A DNA stretch of 64,000 bases from Effusibacillus pohliae DSM 22757 (GTDB lineage: Bacteria; Bacillota; Bacilli; Tumebacillales; Effusibacillaceae), in the NCBI RefSeq assembly GCF_000376225.1, contig NZ_AQXL01000122.1, forward strand, positions 1-64,000, given 5' to 3'. Position numbers and translations under genes: made by a program. Positions 3,766 through 58,576 of the stretch are shown here, one piece after another. Within the stretch, counting starts at the first letter, position 1. Each line of letters starts with the position of its first letter. The notes under the pieces were generated by a model. It worked only from the letters and a program-made list of their open reading frames with translations. It was not told the DNA's origin and ran no database searches.

Positions 3766-4074
3766 TAGGGTGATTGGTTGAATTTCGATTTGTTGATGAA
3801 TTCGTGTGAACCGCTCCGGTTTCACGGACGCCCACCGGCGGGACCGGGCGAAATGGCTACGGTCGGCGGGAGGGACTTGCAACCGCTCGCCGCTGGTGGC
3901 AACAGTATTTTGAAAGCGATTTCATAAATTTGGCTGAGCGTGAGGAAGCCGGTCATTCTGCAGGGAAGGCACGTTTTGGTGCTCAGCCGGCGCGAGGGTT
4001 GACTGACAAGCGCGCACGACGTAGGCAATGGTTTGTTCAACCGATCTGTTATTCCTGCAGGGGAGCGTGGGAAC
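3766..4074 (+). other. long untranslated leader of the pdh operon
   Basis: About 300 bases lie between the promoter and the first start codon. There is a hairpin near 3807-3832 (GTGAACC...GGTTTCAC) and GC-rich sequence after it. I recognise no riboswitch or T-box and no coding frame. Confidence 0.4.
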
Positions 4075-5214
4075 ATGTTAATCGAGAAAGATGTGGTGCG
4101 GTCGTTCACCGGTATCGAGGAGGGTGCGACGGCGCCGGAAGTGGCGGACATGACGAAACTGTATCAAGTGTTGACGCCGGAGGGGGAACTGGCGGAGGAC
4201 ATCAGCGGGCGAATCACGCCGGATCTGATGATCGACATGTACAAAAAAATGGTGTTGGTGCGGACGTTTGACCGCAAGTGCATCATCTTGCAGCGGCAAG
4301 GCAGGTTGGGGACCTACGCCCCGTTTGAAGGACAGGAAGCTGCGCAAGTGGGAAGCGCGATGGCCTTGCGGGCAGGCGACTGGATGTTTCCGACCTACCG
4401 CGATCACGCGGCTGCTATTGTGCACGGGCACTCGCTTGTCCGAGTGTTTTTGTACTGGATGGGGCACTCGGATGCCTCCGTTTGTCCGGAGGACAAACGG
4501 ATCCTGCCGCAGTGTGTGCCGATTGCCACGCAGATGCTGCATGCGATGGGGGCAGCCTGGGCAAGCAAGCTGAAAGGTGAGCAAACGGTCAGTATCGCCT
4601 ATCTCGGCGATGGTGCCACTTCCGAAGGGGATTTTCACGAGGCGCTGAATTTTGCCGGCGTCTTCCGCGCGCCTGTCCTCTTTTTCTGTCAAAATAACGG
4701 GTATGCGATCAGCGTTCCGTTTTCCCGGCAATCGGCTTCGCGGACGATCGCCCAACGGGCGGCCGCGTATGACATTCACGGAGTCCGCGTCGACGGCAAC
4801 GATGTTTTTGCGGTTTGGCTGACGGTGCAAGACGCCGTCCAGCGGGCGCGGGTGGGAGGCGGTCCGGCGTTGATCGAGGCGGTCACGTTCCGTTACGGGG
4901 CCCACACCACCGCTGACGATCCGAAAAAATACCGCGACCAGGAAGTGCTCGCACAGGAGTGGCGCCGCCGCGATCCGGTTGACCGGTTGCGCCGGTTTTT
5001 GGAAAAGCAGGGGCTGTGGAACGACGAACAGGAAGCGGCATGGCAACGGCAGGTTGGGGAGACGATCGAATCCGCGCTGGCGGAGGCGGAAGCCTTCCCA
5101 AAACCGCAGCCGGCTGACATGTTTGCGCATGTATATGCCGAGATGCCGTGGCACATTCGCGAGCAACAGCAGGAGCTGCAGCGAGTTTTGAACGAGGGTG
5201 GGATGCAAGCGTGA
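4075..5214 (+). CDS. pdhA: 2-oxoacid (pyruvate-type) dehydrogenase E1 component, alpha subunit
   Basis: 379 residues. The thiamine-diphosphate motif GDGATSEGDFHEALNFAG...NNGYAIS is intact, as are RQGRLGTYAPFEGQEA near the N-terminus and the phosphorylation-loop-like RYGAHTTADDPKKYR. Residues and length resemble Bacillus PdhA more than acetoin dehydrogenase, but a branched-chain 2-oxoacid substrate cannot be excluded. The ATG at 4075 follows AGGGGAG by nine bases; an upstream ATG at 4033 has no ribosome site. First gene of a three-gene operon; its stop overlaps the next start as GTGA. Confidence 0.88.
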   Translation: MLIEKDVVRSFTGIEEGATAPEVADMTKLYQVLTPEGELAEDISGRITPDLMIDMYKKMVLVRTFDRKCIILQRQGRLGTYAPFEGQEAAQVGSAMALRAGDWMFPTYRDHAAAIVHGHSLVRVFLYWMGHSDASVCPEDKRILPQCVPIATQMLHAMGAAWASKLKGEQTVSIAYLGDGATSEGDFHEALNFAGVFRAPVLFFCQNNGYAISVPFSRQSASRTIAQRAAAYDIHGVRVDGNDVFAVWLTVQDAVQRARVGGGPALIEAVTFRYGAHTTADDPKKYRDQEVLAQEWRRRDPVDRLRRFLEKQGLWNDEQEAAWQRQVGETIESALAEAEAFPKPQPADMFAHVYAEMPWHIREQQQELQRVLNEGGMQA

Positions 5215-6194
5215 GCAGGAAATTGACGATGCTGCAAGCGATCAGGGAAGCGATGGACCAGAAGCTGACCGACGATCCCCGCGTGATGCTACTGGGCGAG
5301 GATATCGGTGTCAACGGCGGGGTGTTCCGGGCGACCGAAGGGTTAATCGAAAAATACGGTGCGGAACGGGTGGTTGACACGCCGCTGGCAGAGTCGGGCA
5401 TTGTGGGGACGGCGATCGGGTTGGCGTTGAACGGGATGATTCCGGTCGTGGAAATCCAATTTTTGGCTTTTATCTATCCGGGATTTGAGCAGGTGGTGTC
5501 GCATGCGGCCCGCATGCGGTACCGGACGCGCGGCCAGTTCTCGGTTCCGATGGTCATCCGCACTCCGTACGGCGCCGGGATCCGGGGGCCGGAACTGCAT
5601 TCCGAGAGCGTCGAGACTTTTTTTGCCCATACGCCCGGGTTGAAAGTGGTGGTGCCTGCCACTCCCTATGATGCAAAAGGGCTGCTGATCTCCGCGATCG
5701 AAGATCCGGATCCGGTGGTGTTTCTGGAACCGACCAAAATTTACCGGGCATTCAGTGAAGAGGTGCCGGAGGAGATGTACCGGGTGCCGATCGGCAAGGC
5801 GCGAGTGGTGCAGGAGGGAAGCGACCTGTCGATTTTCGCCTGGGGGGCGATGCTCCGTGTGGCGATGAAAGCGGCCGCTGACATCGAACGGGAAAAAGGC
5901 TGGTCCTGCGAAGTGATCGACCTGCGCACGCTGTATCCGCTCGACCGGGATTGCATCATCGGTTCCGTGAAAAAAACAGGCCGCGCGTTGATCGTCCACG
6001 AAGCGCACAAAACGGCCGGGATGGCGGCGGAAATCATCGCGTTGATCAATGACGAAGCGTTGCTCTATCTGAAGGCGCCGATCAGGCGGATCACCGGGTT
6101 CGACGTGCCGGTGCCGCAATTCTCGCTGGAAGATGACTACCTCCCGACGGAGGCGCGCGTCAAACTTGGAATCACGGAAACGATTTTGTTCTAG
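5211..6194 (+). CDS. pdhB: 2-oxoacid (pyruvate-type) dehydrogenase E1 component, beta subunit
   Basis: 327 residues, matching the family's 325. N-terminal LLGEDIGVNGGVFRATEGL and TPLAESGIVGTAIGLALNG are typical transketolase-fold beta-subunit motifs; the C-terminal domain includes EVIDLRTLYPLD and HEAHKTAGMAAEI. The GTG at 5211 overlaps the stop of the alpha subunit by four bases, implying translational coupling and equal subunit supply; a GAGGGTGGG ribosome site lies just upstream. An ATG at 5148 is inside the alpha gene and adds unrelated sequence. Confidence 0.9.
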   Translation: MSRKLTMLQAIREAMDQKLTDDPRVMLLGEDIGVNGGVFRATEGLIEKYGAERVVDTPLAESGIVGTAIGLALNGMIPVVEIQFLAFIYPGFEQVVSHAARMRYRTRGQFSVPMVIRTPYGAGIRGPELHSESVETFFAHTPGLKVVVPATPYDAKGLLISAIEDPDPVVFLEPTKIYRAFSEEVPEEMYRVPIGKARVVQEGSDLSIFAWGAMLRVAMKAAADIEREKGWSCEVIDLRTLYPLDRDCIIGSVKKTGRALIVHEAHKTAGMAAEIIALINDEALLYLKAPIRRITGFDVPVPQFSLEDDYLPTEARVKLGITETILF

Positions 6195-6235
6195 CGGGCG
6201 AAGCTGCAGACGATTGGCACAGGGAGGATCGGAAG

Positions 6236-7639
6236 ATGGTCGAATTCAAGCTGGCCGATATTGGGGAAGGTATGCACGAAGGGGAGATCACCCGCTGGCT
6301 GGTGAAAGAGGGTGACCGGGTGGAACGGGACCAGCCGGTGGTGGAAGTGCAGACAGACAAAGTGAACGCCGAGTTGGCTTCGCCCGTAACGGGAACGATC
6401 CGCAAGATTTTGCATGCGGAAGGTGAGACGGTCGAGGTGGGTTCGACGCTGTTCATCATCGAGCCGGAATCGGAGGGGGCGGCTGTGGCGGTCCGTCCCG
6501 TTATCGAGCAGCCGGCCGGGTCGGCTGTGGCAGCGGGCCAGACAGCCGCCGGGCGGGAAGTTGCCGAGCTGGAGGCCGCGCCTCGTGCGGCCATGGCGGT
6601 ACAGAGGGAGAGGCGGGTGCTGGCGACACCCCATGTGCGCCGCTTGGCAAGAGAAATGCAGATCGACATTGAACAGGTGCCAGGAACCGGACCGGTGGGC
6701 CGGGTGACGGAGGAGGATCTGCGCCGGTTTGTGCAGGCGCTGCAAAGCGGTGTGCAAAGCGGACGCAAAGCGGACGTGGGGCACGTGGGGCACGTGGGGC
6801 ACGTGGGGCACCAGGGTGAAACGGATGCCGGCAGCGGCCGGGGAACAGCGACCAGCGGCGAAGCGAGCCGGCAGTCGGAGCAAACCGCAGGCCACGCGGT
6901 GCCGCCTGTCGCGACAGGCGGGCGCATGGCGGAAGAGCCGGAAGAGCGCATCCCGCTCCGCGGCATCCGCAAGAAAATCGCGGAGCATATGGTCAAATCG
7001 GTATCGATCATTCCGCATGTGACGCATGTCGATGAGGTCGAAATGGACGCGCTGATCGCGCTGCGCGACAGGTTGAAAGTATATGCGGAAGAGCGGCAGA
7101 TCAGGCTGACGTTCCTGCCGTTTTTCATCAAGGCGCTGGTTATTGCACTGAAGGAGTTCGCGATGCTGAACGCTTCGATTGACGATGCAAGCGGCGAAAT
7201 CGTCCTGAAACGCTACTATCACATCGGGATTGCCACCGACACGGAGGACGGCCTGATCGTTCCGGTGATCAAACATGCGGATCGCAAGACGATTTTTCAA
7301 CTTGCGGAAGAGATCAGCCAACTGGCGGCCTTGGCGCGGCAAGGCAAGCTGAAGCTTGAACAGATTACCGGCGGTACGTTTACGATCAGCAACGTGGGAC
7401 CGATCGGCGGGCTGTATGCAACCCCGATCATCAACCATCCGGAAGCGGCGATTTTGGGACTGCACAAGATGGAACCCAGGATGGTGGTTCGCGACGGACA
7501 AGGGGTGATCCGGACGATGATGCACATATCGTTGTCGTTTGACCACCGGTTGATCGACGGAGCCACTGCCGTCCGCTTCACCAACCGCATCAAGGAGTTG
7601 CTGGAAAATCCGGATCGGCTGTTCCTGGAAATGGCTTAG
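6236..7639 (+). CDS. pdhC: 2-oxoacid dehydrogenase E2 (dihydrolipoyl acyltransferase)
   Basis: 467 residues. One lipoyl domain (about 1-77) with the lipoyl lysine K42 in QTDKVNAE; a peripheral-subunit-binding domain about 125-165 (ATPHVRRLAREMQID); a flexible linker; and a catalytic domain ending in SLSFDHRLIDGATAV, with the acyltransferase His/Asp motif DHRLIDG. The linker contains a GHV repeat encoded by four exact 9-base units. No E3 (lipoamide dehydrogenase) gene follows, so E3 must be encoded elsewhere. Pyruvate versus branched-chain specificity is not settled by sequence. Confidence 0.88.
   Translation: MVEFKLADIGEGMHEGEITRWLVKEGDRVERDQPVVEVQTDKVNAELASPVTGTIRKILHAEGETVEVGSTLFIIEPESEGAAVAVRPVIEQPAGSAVAAGQTAAGREVAELEAAPRAAMAVQRERRVLATPHVRRLAREMQIDIEQVPGTGPVGRVTEEDLRRFVQALQSGVQSGRKADVGHVGHVGHVGHQGETDAGSGRGTATSGEASRQSEQTAGHAVPPVATGGRMAEEPEERIPLRGIRKKIAEHMVKSVSIIPHVTHVDEVEMDALIALRDRLKVYAEERQIRLTFLPFFIKALVIALKEFAMLNASIDDASGEIVLKRYYHIGIATDTEDGLIVPVIKHADRKTIFQLAEEISQLAALARQGKLKLEQITGGTFTISNVGPIGGLYATPIINHPEAAILGLHKMEPRMVVRDGQGVIRTMMHISLSFDHRLIDGATAVRFTNRIKELLENPDRLFLEMA
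6774..6809 (+). repeat. four tandem 9-bp units inside the E2 linker
   Basis: ACGTGGGGC is repeated exactly four times (6774, 6783, 6792, 6801), encoding a Val-Gly-His repeat. Just before it, GCAAAGCGG-like units recur imperfectly. Such repeats are prone to length change by slippage without shifting the frame. Confidence 0.9.
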
Positions 7640-8957: not shown

Positions 8958-8992
8958 AGAAACCATGGCAAAAGCTGTGGTTTCTTTTTTTT
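8958..8992 (+). terminator. terminator after the YhdH-family gene
   Basis: AGAAACCA pairs with TGGTTTCT across a 12-base loop and runs into an eight-base T tract. Confidence 0.85.
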
Positions 8993-9051
8993 GGCGCTGT
9001 TTTTTTGCAGTTTGCAGATTTGTATTAATACAGATATTTACTTTTTCATAC

Positions 9052-9060
9052 TGTTATAAT
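9052..9060 (+). promoter_or_regulatory. extended -10 promoter of small-protein gene A
   Basis: TGTTATAAT is an extended -10 element; no good -35 is seen. The equivalent site in copy B is TGTTATAGT (23474-23482). Confidence 0.6.
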
Positions 9061-9105
9061 ACAATATCTGCAATAAGAACATTCAGATAACAGGAGGCGG
9101 TTCGG

Positions 9106-9258
9106 ATGTCGATGGCGGAATTTTACGGATGGACGCACCAACCCTTGAACGGCGGTCAGGTGACGGCGCAATGCACATCGTGCGGAGCGGAATTAAACGA
9201 TCAGCGGGAAGCGGTGATGTACGAATGTGAACGCTGCATGAATTCCCATGCCGAGTAA
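9106..9258 (+). CDS. 50-residue four-cysteine (zinc-ribbon-like) protein, copy A
   Basis: Not a family I recognise. Residues 1-10 (MSMAEFYGWT) are followed by C23-x2-C26 and C41-x2-C44 with 14 residues between, the layout of a small treble-clef or ribbon zinc site, within DQREAVMYECERCMN. Strong ribosome site AGGAGGCGG seven bases ahead. It has its own promoter and a terminator at 9305, so it is a single-gene unit. A paralogue at 23525 shares 36 of about 50 residues, including all four cysteines. Conservation of both copies with their signals argues that they are real genes. Function unknown; DNA or RNA binding, or a metal-dependent switch, are possible. Confidence 0.8.
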   Translation: MSMAEFYGWTHQPLNGGQVTAQCTSCGAELNDQREAVMYECERCMNSHAE

Positions 9259-9304: not shown

Positions 9305-9348
9305 AGGGGAGGAATCTGCCGGGAGGGCGGCTTCCACCCCTATTTTTT
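9305..9348 (+). terminator. terminator of small-protein gene A
   Basis: AGGGG-A-GGAA pairs with TTCC-A-CCCCT around an inner GCC...GGC, followed by six T. Confidence 0.8.
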
Positions 9349-11897: not shown

Positions 11898-13229
11898 ATG
11901 ATCTTCAATCCGGAAATGGAAACGATGGCGCGCGGAGAGATGCAAAAACTGCAGTTGCAAAGGCTGCAGGAGGTCGTCAGGCGCTGCTATGAAAACGTGC
12001 CGTTTCACCGGCAGAATTTTGATCGGGCGGGCGTCAGGCCGGAGGACGTCCGCAGCCTGGAGGATTTGCAGCGGCTGCCGTTTATGAAAAAATCGGATTT
12101 GCGGGAAAATTACCCGTTTAAGCTGTTTGCGGTCGACATGAAAGAGGTCGTCCGCATCCACGGTTCCTCCGGCACCAAGGGCAAGCCGACGGTGGTCGGG
12201 TACACGAAAAAAGACATCGAAAACTGGGCGGAGGTGGTGGCCCGCGCAATTTGCTGCGCAGGCGGGCGGCCGGGCGACATTTTCCACAACGCCTACGGAT
12301 ACGGCCTGTTCACCGGCGGGCTCGGGCTGCACTATGGAATCGAATACCTGGGCGCAACGGCGGTGCCCGTTTCCGGCGGCAACACGCCCCGCCAAATCAC
12401 GCTGATTCAGGATTTTCAGCCGCGCGGAATCGCCGGGACGCCTTCGTATATTCTCAATATTGTGGAAGAAATGGAACGGATGGGCTTGAATCCGCGGGAA
12501 ACCAGCCTGGAATACGGGATTTTCGGCGCCGAACCGTGGTCGGAAGAAATGCGGGCGCAGCTGGAGGACAAGATGGGCATCAAGGCGGTCGACATTTACG
12601 GACTGAGCGAAGTGATCGGTCCGGGTGTGTCGATCGAGTGCCATGAGGCGCAAGACGGGCTGCATATCGCGGTAGACCATTTTTTGGCGGAGATTATCGA
12701 TCCTGCCACCGGTGAAGCGCTTCCGTACGGGCAGGAAGGGGAACTGGTTTTCACTTCACTGACCAAAGAAGCGTTCCCGGTCATCCGCTACCGCACCGGC
12801 GATATCGCGTCTCTGAATCCGGAAACGTGCAAATGCGGGCGCACCACGATCCGCATGTCACGGATCAAGGGGCGCGTCGACGACATGTTAATCATCCGCG
12901 GGGTCAACGTATTCCCGACGGAAATCGAGTCGGTGCTGCTCAGCTTCAAACAGCTGGCCCCGCATTACCAGGTGGTGATCGACCGCGACGGCGCGCTGGA
13001 CCGGTTTGAGGTGCATTGCGAACTGACGAACGAGTTCATGCGAGGCATTGACGATTTGGACAACAGCGAGAGCGTGGTCAACCTGCTGAAAGAGATCGGG
13101 CATATGATGAAAAATGCGCTCGGCGTCTCCGTGCAGCTGAAGCTGAACAAACCGAACACGCTCCCGCGCAGCGAAGGCAAAGCGGTACGGATCGTAGACT
13201 ACCGGAACAAAGCGGGCGCTGTCAAATAA
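11898..13229 (+). CDS. paaK: phenylacetate-CoA ligase
   Basis: 443 residues (family 430-445). AMP-binding P-loop HGSSGTKGKPTVVGYT, adenylation motif DIYGLSEVIGPGVSIEC, and YRTGDIASLNPETCKCGRT with the conserved R-x-GR-x-DDML hinge before the C-terminal domain. It converts phenylacetate, ATP and CoA to phenylacetyl-CoA, the committed first step. ATG 11898; weak GGGGGTCTGGG ribosome site. Lies between two crotonase genes. Confidence 0.96.
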   Translation: MIFNPEMETMARGEMQKLQLQRLQEVVRRCYENVPFHRQNFDRAGVRPEDVRSLEDLQRLPFMKKSDLRENYPFKLFAVDMKEVVRIHGSSGTKGKPTVVGYTKKDIENWAEVVARAICCAGGRPGDIFHNAYGYGLFTGGLGLHYGIEYLGATAVPVSGGNTPRQITLIQDFQPRGIAGTPSYILNIVEEMERMGLNPRETSLEYGIFGAEPWSEEMRAQLEDKMGIKAVDIYGLSEVIGPGVSIECHEAQDGLHIAVDHFLAEIIDPATGEALPYGQEGELVFTSLTKEAFPVIRYRTGDIASLNPETCKCGRTTIRMSRIKGRVDDMLIIRGVNVFPTEIESVLLSFKQLAPHYQVVIDRDGALDRFEVHCELTNEFMRGIDDLDNSESVVNLLKEIGHMMKNALGVSVQLKLNKPNTLPRSEGKAVRIVDYRNKAGAVK

Positions 13230-20522: not shown

Positions 20523-21356
20523 ATGACCGGGTTGCAGAAAGTAGTGGATGCGGGGCAAGCGATGGCGAATCCCGCCTACAAAGCTGCTCTTGTGGAACTG
20601 TTGTACCTGTTGGCCGACGATGACTTTATACTCGGCTACCGCGGTTCCGAGTGGTTGGGGTTGGCTCCCCATATCGAGGAGGATGTGTCGTTTTCCTCGA
20701 TCTCCCAGGACATGATGGGACACGCGGTGGCATTTTTCGACATGCTGGAAGCGCTGGGGGAAGGGAAAGCGGACGATCTGGCGCAATTGCGGCAGCCGGA
20801 AGCGTTCCGCAATGCGATTCTGGTGGAGCGGGCCAACGGATCGGGCACGTATCTGGAAAATCCTCAGTTTGACTGGGCCTATACAGTTGTCCGGTTTTAT
20901 CTGTACAGCCTGTTTAAACAGGTGCGGTTGGAATCGTTGGCAAACTCCTCGTATCTGCCGTTGACTCAGTTGGCGCGCAAAATGATGCCGGAGTTGAAGT
21001 ACCACCTGCACCACTGGTCGGTCTGGATGAAACAGTTGGCCACCAGTACGGAGGAAGCGCGCAAGCGTCTGGTGGCTGCGCTGCAACAGGCGTGGTCTGA
21101 TCTGGGCGATTTGTTTGACCTTGGTCCGAAAGCGGAGGAAATCGTCGGGCACGGCCTGATCGAGGGAAGCGAACTGCTGGCGCAGCGTTGGCAGGAACGG
21201 GCGAAAAAAAGCCTGGAGGCCTACCGGTTACCGTGGCTGGGAAAGCCGCAGCCGCCGGAGCTGAACGGCCGCGCCGGACAACATACGGAAGAACTACAAC
21301 AGGCTGTGGCCACTCTGTCCGAAGTGTACCGGTTGGACCCGGCGGCCAATTGGTAA
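20523..21356 (+). CDS. paaC: phenylacetyl-CoA 1,2-epoxidase subunit C (structural)
   Basis: 277 residues, ferritin-like fold related to PaaA but used as a structural partner. LLYLLADDDFILGYRGSEW and SISQDMMGHAVAFFDML are the family marks. ATG 20523, ribosome site GGGGGTGGG. Confidence 0.92.
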   Translation: MTGLQKVVDAGQAMANPAYKAALVELLYLLADDDFILGYRGSEWLGLAPHIEEDVSFSSISQDMMGHAVAFFDMLEALGEGKADDLAQLRQPEAFRNAILVERANGSGTYLENPQFDWAYTVVRFYLYSLFKQVRLESLANSSYLPLTQLARKMMPELKYHLHHWSVWMKQLATSTEEARKRLVAALQQAWSDLGDLFDLGPKAEEIVGHGLIEGSELLAQRWQERAKKSLEAYRLPWLGKPQPPELNGRAGQHTEELQQAVATLSEVYRLDPAANW

Positions 21357-23391: not shown

Positions 23392-23431
23392 ACCAGCCAT
23401 TCTGGCTACCAGCAGAATGGCTGGTTTTTTT
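23392..23431 (+). terminator. terminator of paa unit 2
   Basis: ACCAGCCATTCTG pairs perfectly with CAGAATGGCTGGT across eight bases and is followed by a T-run. Confidence 0.93.
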
Positions 23432-23434
23432 CTG

Positions 23435-23680
23435 TGCAAATTTGTAGTAACACAGATGTTTACTTATCCATACTGTTATAGTACAATATCCACAAGAACA
23501 TTCAGATAACGGGAGGCGGTTCGCATGTCAATCGCGGAATTCTACGGGTGGACCTATCGACCCCTGACGGCCATCCCACAGGTGACGGCACAATGCAGCG
23601 TATGCGGGGAGCAGATGTATGACCAGCGGGAAGCGGTAATGTACGAATGTGAACGCTGCATGAATGACCGGGCGGAATAG
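23435..23680 (+). repeat. direct repeat copy B, right side of the paa island
   Basis: Second copy of the 246-base cassette at 9013-9258, in the same orientation, beginning right after the unit 2 terminator. One three-base deletion in the leader and one three-base insertion in the coding part keep the lengths equal. Confidence 0.85.
23525..23680 (+). CDS. 51-residue four-cysteine (zinc-ribbon-like) protein, copy B
   Basis: Paralogue of the protein at 9106. C24-x2-C27 and C42-x2-C45 are in register, and the core DQREAVMYECERCMN is identical; the region between residues 14 and 18 and the residues just around the first cysteine pair differ. The same AACGGGAGGCGG leader precedes ATG 23525. Differences are concentrated away from the metal ligands, suggesting selection on the protein. 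Unknown family and function. Confidence 0.8.
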   Translation: MSIAEFYGWTYRPLTAIPQVTAQCSVCGEQMYDQREAVMYECERCMNDRAE

Positions 23681-23709
23681 CAGGAAGGCTGGCGGGCTTA
23701 TGTACGCGG

Positions 23710-23742
23710 ACAAAGACCGACACGGAAGGTGCCGGTCTTTGT
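23710..23742. terminator. hairpin between convergent genes
   Basis: ACAAAGACCG pairs with CGGTCTTTGT over a 13-base loop, between small-protein gene B and the convergent DUF169 gene. No T-run on either side, so termination here is uncertain. Confidence 0.45.
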
Positions 23743-23747
23743 CTGGC

Positions 23748-34693: not shown

Positions 34694-34716
34694 GTGGCTG
34701 CGGCCACCTTTTTTTT
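34694..34716 (+). terminator. T-run hairpin without an upstream gene on its strand
   Basis: GTGGC-TGCG-GCCAC followed by eight T. The upstream 150 bases on this strand have a TATAAT at 34656-34661 but no gene, so this ends either a very short transcript or read-through from the basic-protein gene. Confidence 0.65.
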
Positions 34717-34780
34717 GATCATGGACGATCAACTCCGCGTTGCCCGCACGGACACGGGCGTATTTAGCGGAGTTTCCTTT
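34717..34780 (+). repeat. 64-bp interspersed hairpin element, copy 1
   Basis: Outer stem AACTCCGC (34731-34738) with GCGGAGTT (34767-34774); inner hairpin GCCCG (34742-34746) with CGGGC (34755-34759). It is 54 of 64 bases identical to the reverse complement of 58513-58576. Within a 340-base gap (34529-34868) that otherwise holds only the terminator above. Confidence 0.8.
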
Positions 34781-34868
34781 ATCGATCGGCTTTCCGGAGT
34801 TTCCTGAGTCATACCTGTCCATGTTCCCTCATACAATGTTCCAACGCATTGTGTGGAGGGTGTGAAAG

Positions 34869-57575: not shown

Positions 57576-58514
57576 ATGACGATCAAACGCAAAAAAATTT
57601 CTGTGATCGGTGCCGGCTTTACCGGCGCGACGACCGCTTTGTTCCTGGCGCAGGAGGAACTGGGCGACATCGTGTTGCTCGACATCCCGCAGCTGGAAAA
57701 TCCGACCAAAGGAAAAGCGCTTGACATGTTGGAAGCGACTCCGGTGCTCGGCGTCGACGCGAACATCATCGGCACCAGCAACTACGAGGACACCAAGGAT
57801 TCCGACCTGGTGATCATCACGGCCGGCGTGGCCCGCAAACCGGGCATGAGCCGCGACGACCTCGTCACCACCAACGCCGGCATCGTCAAATCGGTTACCG
57901 AACAGGTCGTAAAATATTCACCGAACTGCTATATCATCGTTCTGTCCAACCCGGTCGACGCAATGACCTACGTCGCCCACAAAACGTCCGGTTTCCCGAA
58001 AAACCGCGTGATCGGACAGTCGGGTGTGCTCGACACCGCGCGCTTCCGCACGTTCGTGGCGCAGGAATTGAATGTTTCCGTCGAGGACGTGACCGGATTC
58101 GTTCTGGGCGGACACGGGGACGATATGGTGCCGCTGATCCGGTATTCGTATGCGGGCGGCATTCCGCTTGAGAAATTGATCCCGCAAGAGCGGATCGACG
58201 CGATTGTCGAACGCACCCGCAAAGGCGGCGGCGAGATCGTCAACCTGCTCGGCACAGGCAGCGCCTATTATGCACCCGCAGCATCGCTGGTTCAAATGGC
58301 GGAAGCCATTTTGAAGGACAAAAAGCGCATTCTTCCGGCGATCGCATTGCTGGAAGGTGAGTACGGGTACGAAAACCTTTACATGGGCGTGCCGACCCTG
58401 ATCGGCGGCAACGGCTTGGAAAAAGTGTTTGAACTGGAACTGACCCCGGAAGAAAAAGCGGCGCTCGACAAGTCGGCCGAATCGGTGCGCAACGTGATGA
58501 ACGTCGTTGGCTGA
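57576..58514 (+). CDS. mdh: malate dehydrogenase (LDH-like type)
   Basis: 312 residues. NAD-site [17 protein letters not shown], substrate arginines in [15 protein letters not shown] and [14 protein letters not shown], catalytic histidine in [14 protein letters not shown] 57576 behind AAGGGGG, 13 bases after icd. Confidence 0.96.
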
Positions 58515-58576
58515 AGGAAACTCGGCTAAAAGCGCCCACATCCGTGCGGGAAACGCCGAGTTGATCGTCCTTGATC
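58513..58576 (-). repeat. 64-bp interspersed hairpin element, copy 2
   Basis: Outer stem AACTCGGC (58519-58526) with GCCGAGTT (58555-58562) and an inner hairpin around CCCACATCCGTGCGGG. Reverse complement of the element at 34717-34780. The outer stem differs from copy 1 at two paired positions (C-G turned to G-C). It begins within the stop codon of mdh. Confidence 0.8.

Follow-up and report, generated by a model that had tools for sequence, protein, structure and literature searches.

Divergent YhfH-family small proteins of Effusibacillus pohliae and a conserved double-palindrome promoter element shared with glyoxylate-shunt genes in Bacilli

The YhfH family (PF14149), to which B. subtilis YhfH belongs, is scarcely studied in the literature that we searched. 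In B. thuringiensis, antisense repression of lipR is exerted by the YhfH RNA independently of the peptide, and knocking out yhfH caused no distinct phenotype under glucose (PMC10989752). A second small protein that bears on the present work is BL02643, a leader protein of ~5 kDa with which the B. licheniformis aceBA operon begins. The BL02643 region was essential for transferring acetate growth to B. subtilis, constructs lacking the region fail on acetate, and a regulatory role was inferred for BL02643 by the authors of that study (PMC3728045). Here we describe two small genes, copies A and B, that were found in a window of Effusibacillus pohliae DSM 22757 DNA, the window being the whole stretch of 64,000 nucleotides that was analyzed. 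The genes and the signals that delimit their transcripts are as follows:

8958 to 8992, plus strand: terminator of the MDR oxidoreductase gene that precedes copy A
9092 to 9097, plus strand: copy A ribosome-binding site AGGAGG, read from the sequence, 8 nt before the ATG
9106 to 9258, plus strand: copy A, 50-amino-acid four-cysteine YhfH-like protein, product MSMAEFYGWTHQPLNGGQVTAQCTSCGAELNDQREAVMYECERCMNSHAE
9305 to 9348, plus strand: copy A intrinsic terminator, a hairpin and T run, from folding of the stretch
23392 to 23431, plus strand: terminator of the aldehyde dehydrogenase gene that precedes copy B
23525 to 23680, plus strand: copy B, 51-amino-acid four-cysteine YhfH-like protein
23707 to 23745, plus strand: hairpin 3′ of copy B, without a T run

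The earlier note on this DNA had proposed that these are two small four-cysteine genes, and they proved to be real. The copy A and copy B proteins are 72% identical, homologues are present in many genera, and few amino acids have changed between the copies, giving a dN/dS of ~0.11 that comes from few codons with synonymous sites near saturation. The low dN/dS, together with conservation of the protein across genera, shows that the peptide is under selection. A search of the 3.36-Mb genome gave no further copy. Sequence comparison bore out the conserved blocks that had been quoted for both copies, and each gene has a strong ribosome site as described, AGGAGG for copy A and GGGAGG for copy B. 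Copy A had also been credited with its own terminator; the element consists of a G+C-rich hairpin followed by a T run (−24.5 kcal/mol for the stretch, z −2.4) and was not picked up by a simple consensus scan. The hairpin that had been noted after copy B is strong (z −5.7) and lacks a T run. Because the MDR oxidoreductase gene terminates upstream of copy A, and the aldehyde dehydrogenase gene upstream of copy B, both copies are separate units. Thus, the view of them as single-gene units was upheld, and each copy is monocistronic with its own predicted promoter.

Antisense pairing of YhfH RNA with lipR (PMC10989752) provides a precedent for a reading in which the RNA, as a dual-function or antisense molecule, would be the main functional product. 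This reading is at odds with the selection on the peptide indicated by the dN/dS value and by protein conservation across genera. In addition, the copy A terminator lies ~90 nt past the stop codon, and no opposite-strand neighbor gene was recognized there. We consider a primarily RNA-based function very unlikely. Elsewhere in the window, two matches to the Bacillaceae-1 small RNA exceeded the Rfam gathering score, at 34716 to 34783 on the minus strand and at 58510 to 58574 on the plus strand.

The two genes had been taken to represent an unrecognized family, and this claim did not stand. Both proteins score below the PF14149 gathering cut-off of 27 bits (21.1 bits for copy A and 17.7 bits for copy B). 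However, profile-profile comparison of the window group with typical YhfH proteins gave a match over 43 columns, at full length, with 97% probability and an E value of 1.2e-10, and 27 of 32 aligned relatives, which serve as intermediates, match PF14149 at E ≤ 0.01. On sequence, copies A and B are therefore divergent members of the YhfH family. They share with typical members, such as B. subtilis YhfH, their length, the C-X2-C-G-X13-C-X2-C spacing, an N-terminal aromatic motif (EFY/EFF) and organization as a small ORF with its own promoter. The window copies differ in that they start with AEFYGW where typical YhfH proteins have an N-terminal EFYRNLP, have a longer linker before the first cysteine and end in YECERCMN. 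The four cysteines (equivalently C-X2-C-X14-C-X2-C) are invariant in all 61 aligned sequences of both groups, and conserved residues other than cysteine include EFY, E-Q-x-E-S and Y-E-C-E-R-C.

Homologues were present in 16 of 61 relatives and, in a single-sequence search, in 40 of 300 Bacilli. Genome contigs searched with a profile built from a 12-sequence alignment yielded 43 named loci, including ones from Planococcus, Fictibacillus, Brevibacillus, Kurthia, Priestia and Alicyclobacillus. A profile search, a type of check named in the earlier note, found relatives in 197 of 399 Bacilli genomes. A viral origin was dropped, as no relative was found among viral contigs. Our searches found no solved structure of a relative, and an AlphaFold2 model built with 40 relatives had a pLDDT of 58, which is too low for fold searches. 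Judging from the cysteine pattern, each protein most likely forms one structural zinc ribbon.

Other small zinc proteins were also considered. Copies A and B resemble the archaeal HVO_2753-like small zinc fingers (PF07754) and zinc-ribbon RNA-binding proteins in being tiny and in having CxxC zinc knuckles, whereas their scores fall far below the cut-offs (17.8 vs 33.2 bits for PF07754 and 21.1 vs 61 bits for the RNA-binding proteins). HVO_2753 proteins typically contain two zinc sites each. The score against the DksA/TraR C4 zinc-finger family (TIGR02419) is likewise below its cut-off (19.9 vs 59.7 bits). These matches bear on the possibility that the protein is a transcriptional or RNA-level co-regulator of an acetate regulon, a zinc ribbon that would touch RNA polymerase or RNA. 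Weak DksA/TraR C4 finger matches occur in 12 of 32 members (best E value 3e-6), weak matches to the archaeal RNA-binding proteins point the same way, and the B. licheniformis leader protein was read as regulatory (PMC3728045). However, all matches tested for the window copy lie far below curated cut-offs and rest on a common zinc-knuckle pattern, and proteins of 40 to 50 residues have no room for the coiled coil found in DksA and TraR. A co-regulator of this type is, in our judgment, unlikely.

Inspection of the DNA upstream of the two genes revealed a feature that the earlier note had missed. Conservation extends over about 100 bp, both from one copy to the other and in other genera, and each upstream region contains two 14-bp palindromes, YTGTNNTANNACAR, whose centers are 31 bp, or three helical turns, apart. 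These palindromes are arranged around the predicted promoters as follows:

9020 to 9033, plus strand: copy A palindrome 1, TTGTATTAATACAG, directly upstream of the −35 hexamer
9037 to 9042, plus strand: predicted copy A −35 hexamer TTTACT, conserved in copy B and relatives
9051 to 9064, plus strand: copy A palindrome 2, CTGTTATAATACAA, over the −10 hexamer and 31 bp center to center from palindrome 1
9060 to 9065, plus strand: predicted copy A −10 hexamer TACAAT, with a 17-bp spacer
23442 to 23455, plus strand: copy B palindrome 1, TTGTAGTAACACAG
23459 to 23464, plus strand: predicted copy B −35 hexamer TTTACT, from the sequence
23473 to 23486, plus strand: copy B palindrome 2, CTGTTATAGTACAA, over the −10 hexamer (23482 to 23487)

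In the E. pohliae genome the long tandem pattern occurs only at copies A and B. It was found in the genomes of 20 of 61 relatives, with none for the reversed control, and, allowing one mismatch at most, in 78 of 399 Bacilli genomes, compared with one for the reversed pattern. We examined the association of element and protein in both directions, and both tests avoid circularity. Starting from the protein, 31 of 81 upstream regions contained the tandem with up to three mismatches, where dinucleotide shuffles predict 0.05; several of these loci are closely related and so not independent, and many members are downstream operon genes that need no promoter. Starting from the promoter, a four-cysteine small ORF lay within 350 bp of 24 of 50 tandem loci, of which 20 were picked from a list blind to gene content and several belong to a single genus, compared with 0 of 481 random positions. 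The tandem operator is thus common to many members of the family. Single palindromes were not enriched in the E. pohliae genome (16 vs 19 in the reversed-pattern control), and statistical weight is therefore confined to the tandem sites.

The same tandem, YTGTNNTANNACAR-N17-YTGTNNTANNACAR, is common to aceA or aceB genes and yhfH genes in several genera. It precedes isocitrate lyase or malate synthase at 12 loci (L050, L051, L090, L099, L102, L111, L114, L115, L219, L222, L223 and L225), and it stands directly before aceA or aceB also where yhfH is elsewhere. In two genera it precedes pyruvate dehydrogenase E1 alpha of the pdhA operon (L053 and L071, both at 1501 to 1544; L053 was confirmed). 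At L117 the tandem fronts a solute symporter with acetate permeases among its relatives, and at L116 it fronts pyruvate formate-lyase. By eye, further sites precede an acyl-CoA thioesterase, an acyl-CoA ligase and CoA-transferases. E. pohliae itself has a perfect single site 44 bp before the isocitrate lyase (aceA) start and a one-mismatch single site 59 bp before an acetate-CoA ligase gene (acsA); these two sites rest on gene function, not statistics. We found no description of the conserved double operator, or of its link to the glyoxylate shunt, in the papers that were searched.

Several of the loci carry other small or related ORFs. Tandem sites precede ORFs of ~50 amino acids that lack a CxxC pair and look similar to small proteins of the BH0509 type (L086:1545 to 1712 and L091:1562 to 1708). 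In two genera the immediate neighbors of aceBA include related ORFs of ~160 amino acids, possibly of the YueI type (L223:3945 to 4427 and L224:826 to 1299). Tiny proteins with DnaJ-like CxxCxGxG repeats are found behind the tandem at five loci (L102:1559 to 1714, L111:2202 to 2354, L115:2065 to 2214 and, on the minus strand, L114:1817 to 2080 and L056:1297 to 1515), in four of them just before isocitrate lyase or malate synthase. By eye, the tandem at L119:2050 to 2094 precedes a bacilliredoxin-like ORF of the BrxA/BrxB type, which hints at a thiol link.

Such a link would suit a thiol or zinc buffer, that is, a redox- or aldehyde-sensitive store made under aldehyde and acyl-CoA stress with no single enzyme partner. 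The four invariant cysteines are consistent with this function, as are the tiny CxxCxGxG proteins that take an equivalent place in the operon ahead of aceA or aceB and the bacilliredoxin-like ORF behind the element. A mere zinc sink, however, would have no need of the conserved non-cysteine residues, and we regard a buffer as rather improbable.

The CxxCxGxG proteins also affect how the B. licheniformis data are read. Like members of the YhfH family, BL02643 is ~5 kDa, and its gene precedes those for malate synthase and isocitrate lyase, with which it is apparently co-transcribed. The spacing of BL02643 to aceB is 177 nt (ribosome site), compared with 174 nt (start to start) for the CxxCxGxG protein of L111 and ~210 nt for Fictibacillus YhfH. 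Because 177 nt fits 174 better than ~210, the BL02643 evidence may concern a protein of the unrelated CxxCxGxG type, which is a candidate identity for BL02643. The deletion in the BL02643 construct may also have removed promoter sequence. The acetate data for BL02643 are suggestive where YhfH is concerned.

Gene order provides a second connection with the glyoxylate shunt. The 66 genomes for which an isocitrate lyase was listed contain 109 listed family members. Of these, 27 in 27 genomes are no more than 3.5 kb away from isocitrate lyase, where 0.2 would be expected, and members often share an apparent operon with aceA or aceB. In Planococcus a yhfH-like gene begins ~20 bp after malate synthase A or, at other loci, ~80 bp after isocitrate lyase, and in Kurthia it follows malate synthase A closely. 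Gaps of 79 to 87 bp separate the gene from a downstream malate synthase A in Fictibacillus, and in Alicyclobacillus montanus a gap of 84 bp separates it from a downstream isocitrate lyase. Since gene order varies while the partners are constant, a functional link is indicated rather than inherited synteny alone. Some genomes, many of the f20 g46 genomes among them, have the protein and the operator but no isocitrate lyase match, so the shunt enzymes cannot be the only target or partner; pyruvate dehydrogenase is an alternative. In E. pohliae the copies are near genes of the phenylacetate and branched-chain oxo-acid types, not near aceA. Those in the window encode 2-oxo-acid dehydrogenase E1/E2, a phenylacetate-type AMP-binding CoA ligase and PaaA/PaaC (4069 to 7639, 11898 to 13226 and 20523 to 21353), and the pathways that they represent feed acetyl-CoA.

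CcpN, a repressor of gluconeogenic genes, was considered as the protein that recognizes the tandem palindromes. CcpN binds cooperatively to two sites in central carbon metabolism promoters, at gapB and pckA, and pckA represents a known class of CcpN targets. The double palindrome resembles this arrangement in having two sites within a promoter, its sequence has some likeness to the CcpN consensus, and the physiology fits in that gluconeogenesis accompanies growth on acetate. However, 30 pckA upstream regions were without the YTGTNNTANNACAR tandem, the best fits having 5 to 9 mismatches and falling mostly in the chance range. CcpN was dropped as the best-guess regulator on these grounds, and we view it as extremely unlikely to act through this element. 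No recurring regulator gene was found beside the sites by eye; the neighbors are lineage specific and comprise Lrp/AsnC (at Fictibacillus yhfH-aceB), ArsR (L057 and L058), a MarR-like protein (L128) and LacI with a sigma-54-type activator (L188).

The reading that we favor, to which we give about an even chance, is that the YhfH-like small zinc-ribbon protein is made under an acetate/glyoxylate-shunt regulator and modulates or stabilizes an enzyme of that node. The geometry and conservation of the sites suggest that the regulator would bind both palindromes cooperatively and occlude the promoter. The identity of the co-regulated genes suggests in turn that acetate, or other substrates that yield acetyl-CoA, would release this block, such that the small protein would be produced alongside shunt and acetyl-CoA enzymes. 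Production together with the glyoxylate shunt is indicated because the element also fronts aceA, aceB and pdh genes in relatives and because single sites precede aceA and acsA in E. pohliae. From the gene linkage, the protein would then most likely act after translation on one such enzyme, as a small zinc-ribbon adaptor.

A broader proposal, which we put forward tentatively and consider somewhat doubtful, is that YhfH proteins of Bacilli are a new class of post-translational helpers for the shunt/acetyl-CoA node, that an undescribed regulator controls them through the double operator, and that cells need them to grow efficiently on acetate. The common control site and the gene linkage give the orphan YhfH family a testable role in acetate metabolism, with yhfH deletions that could be scored by growth on acetate, and the double operator common to yhfH, aceA, aceB and other acetyl-CoA genes provides a DNA handle with which the regulator may be fished out.
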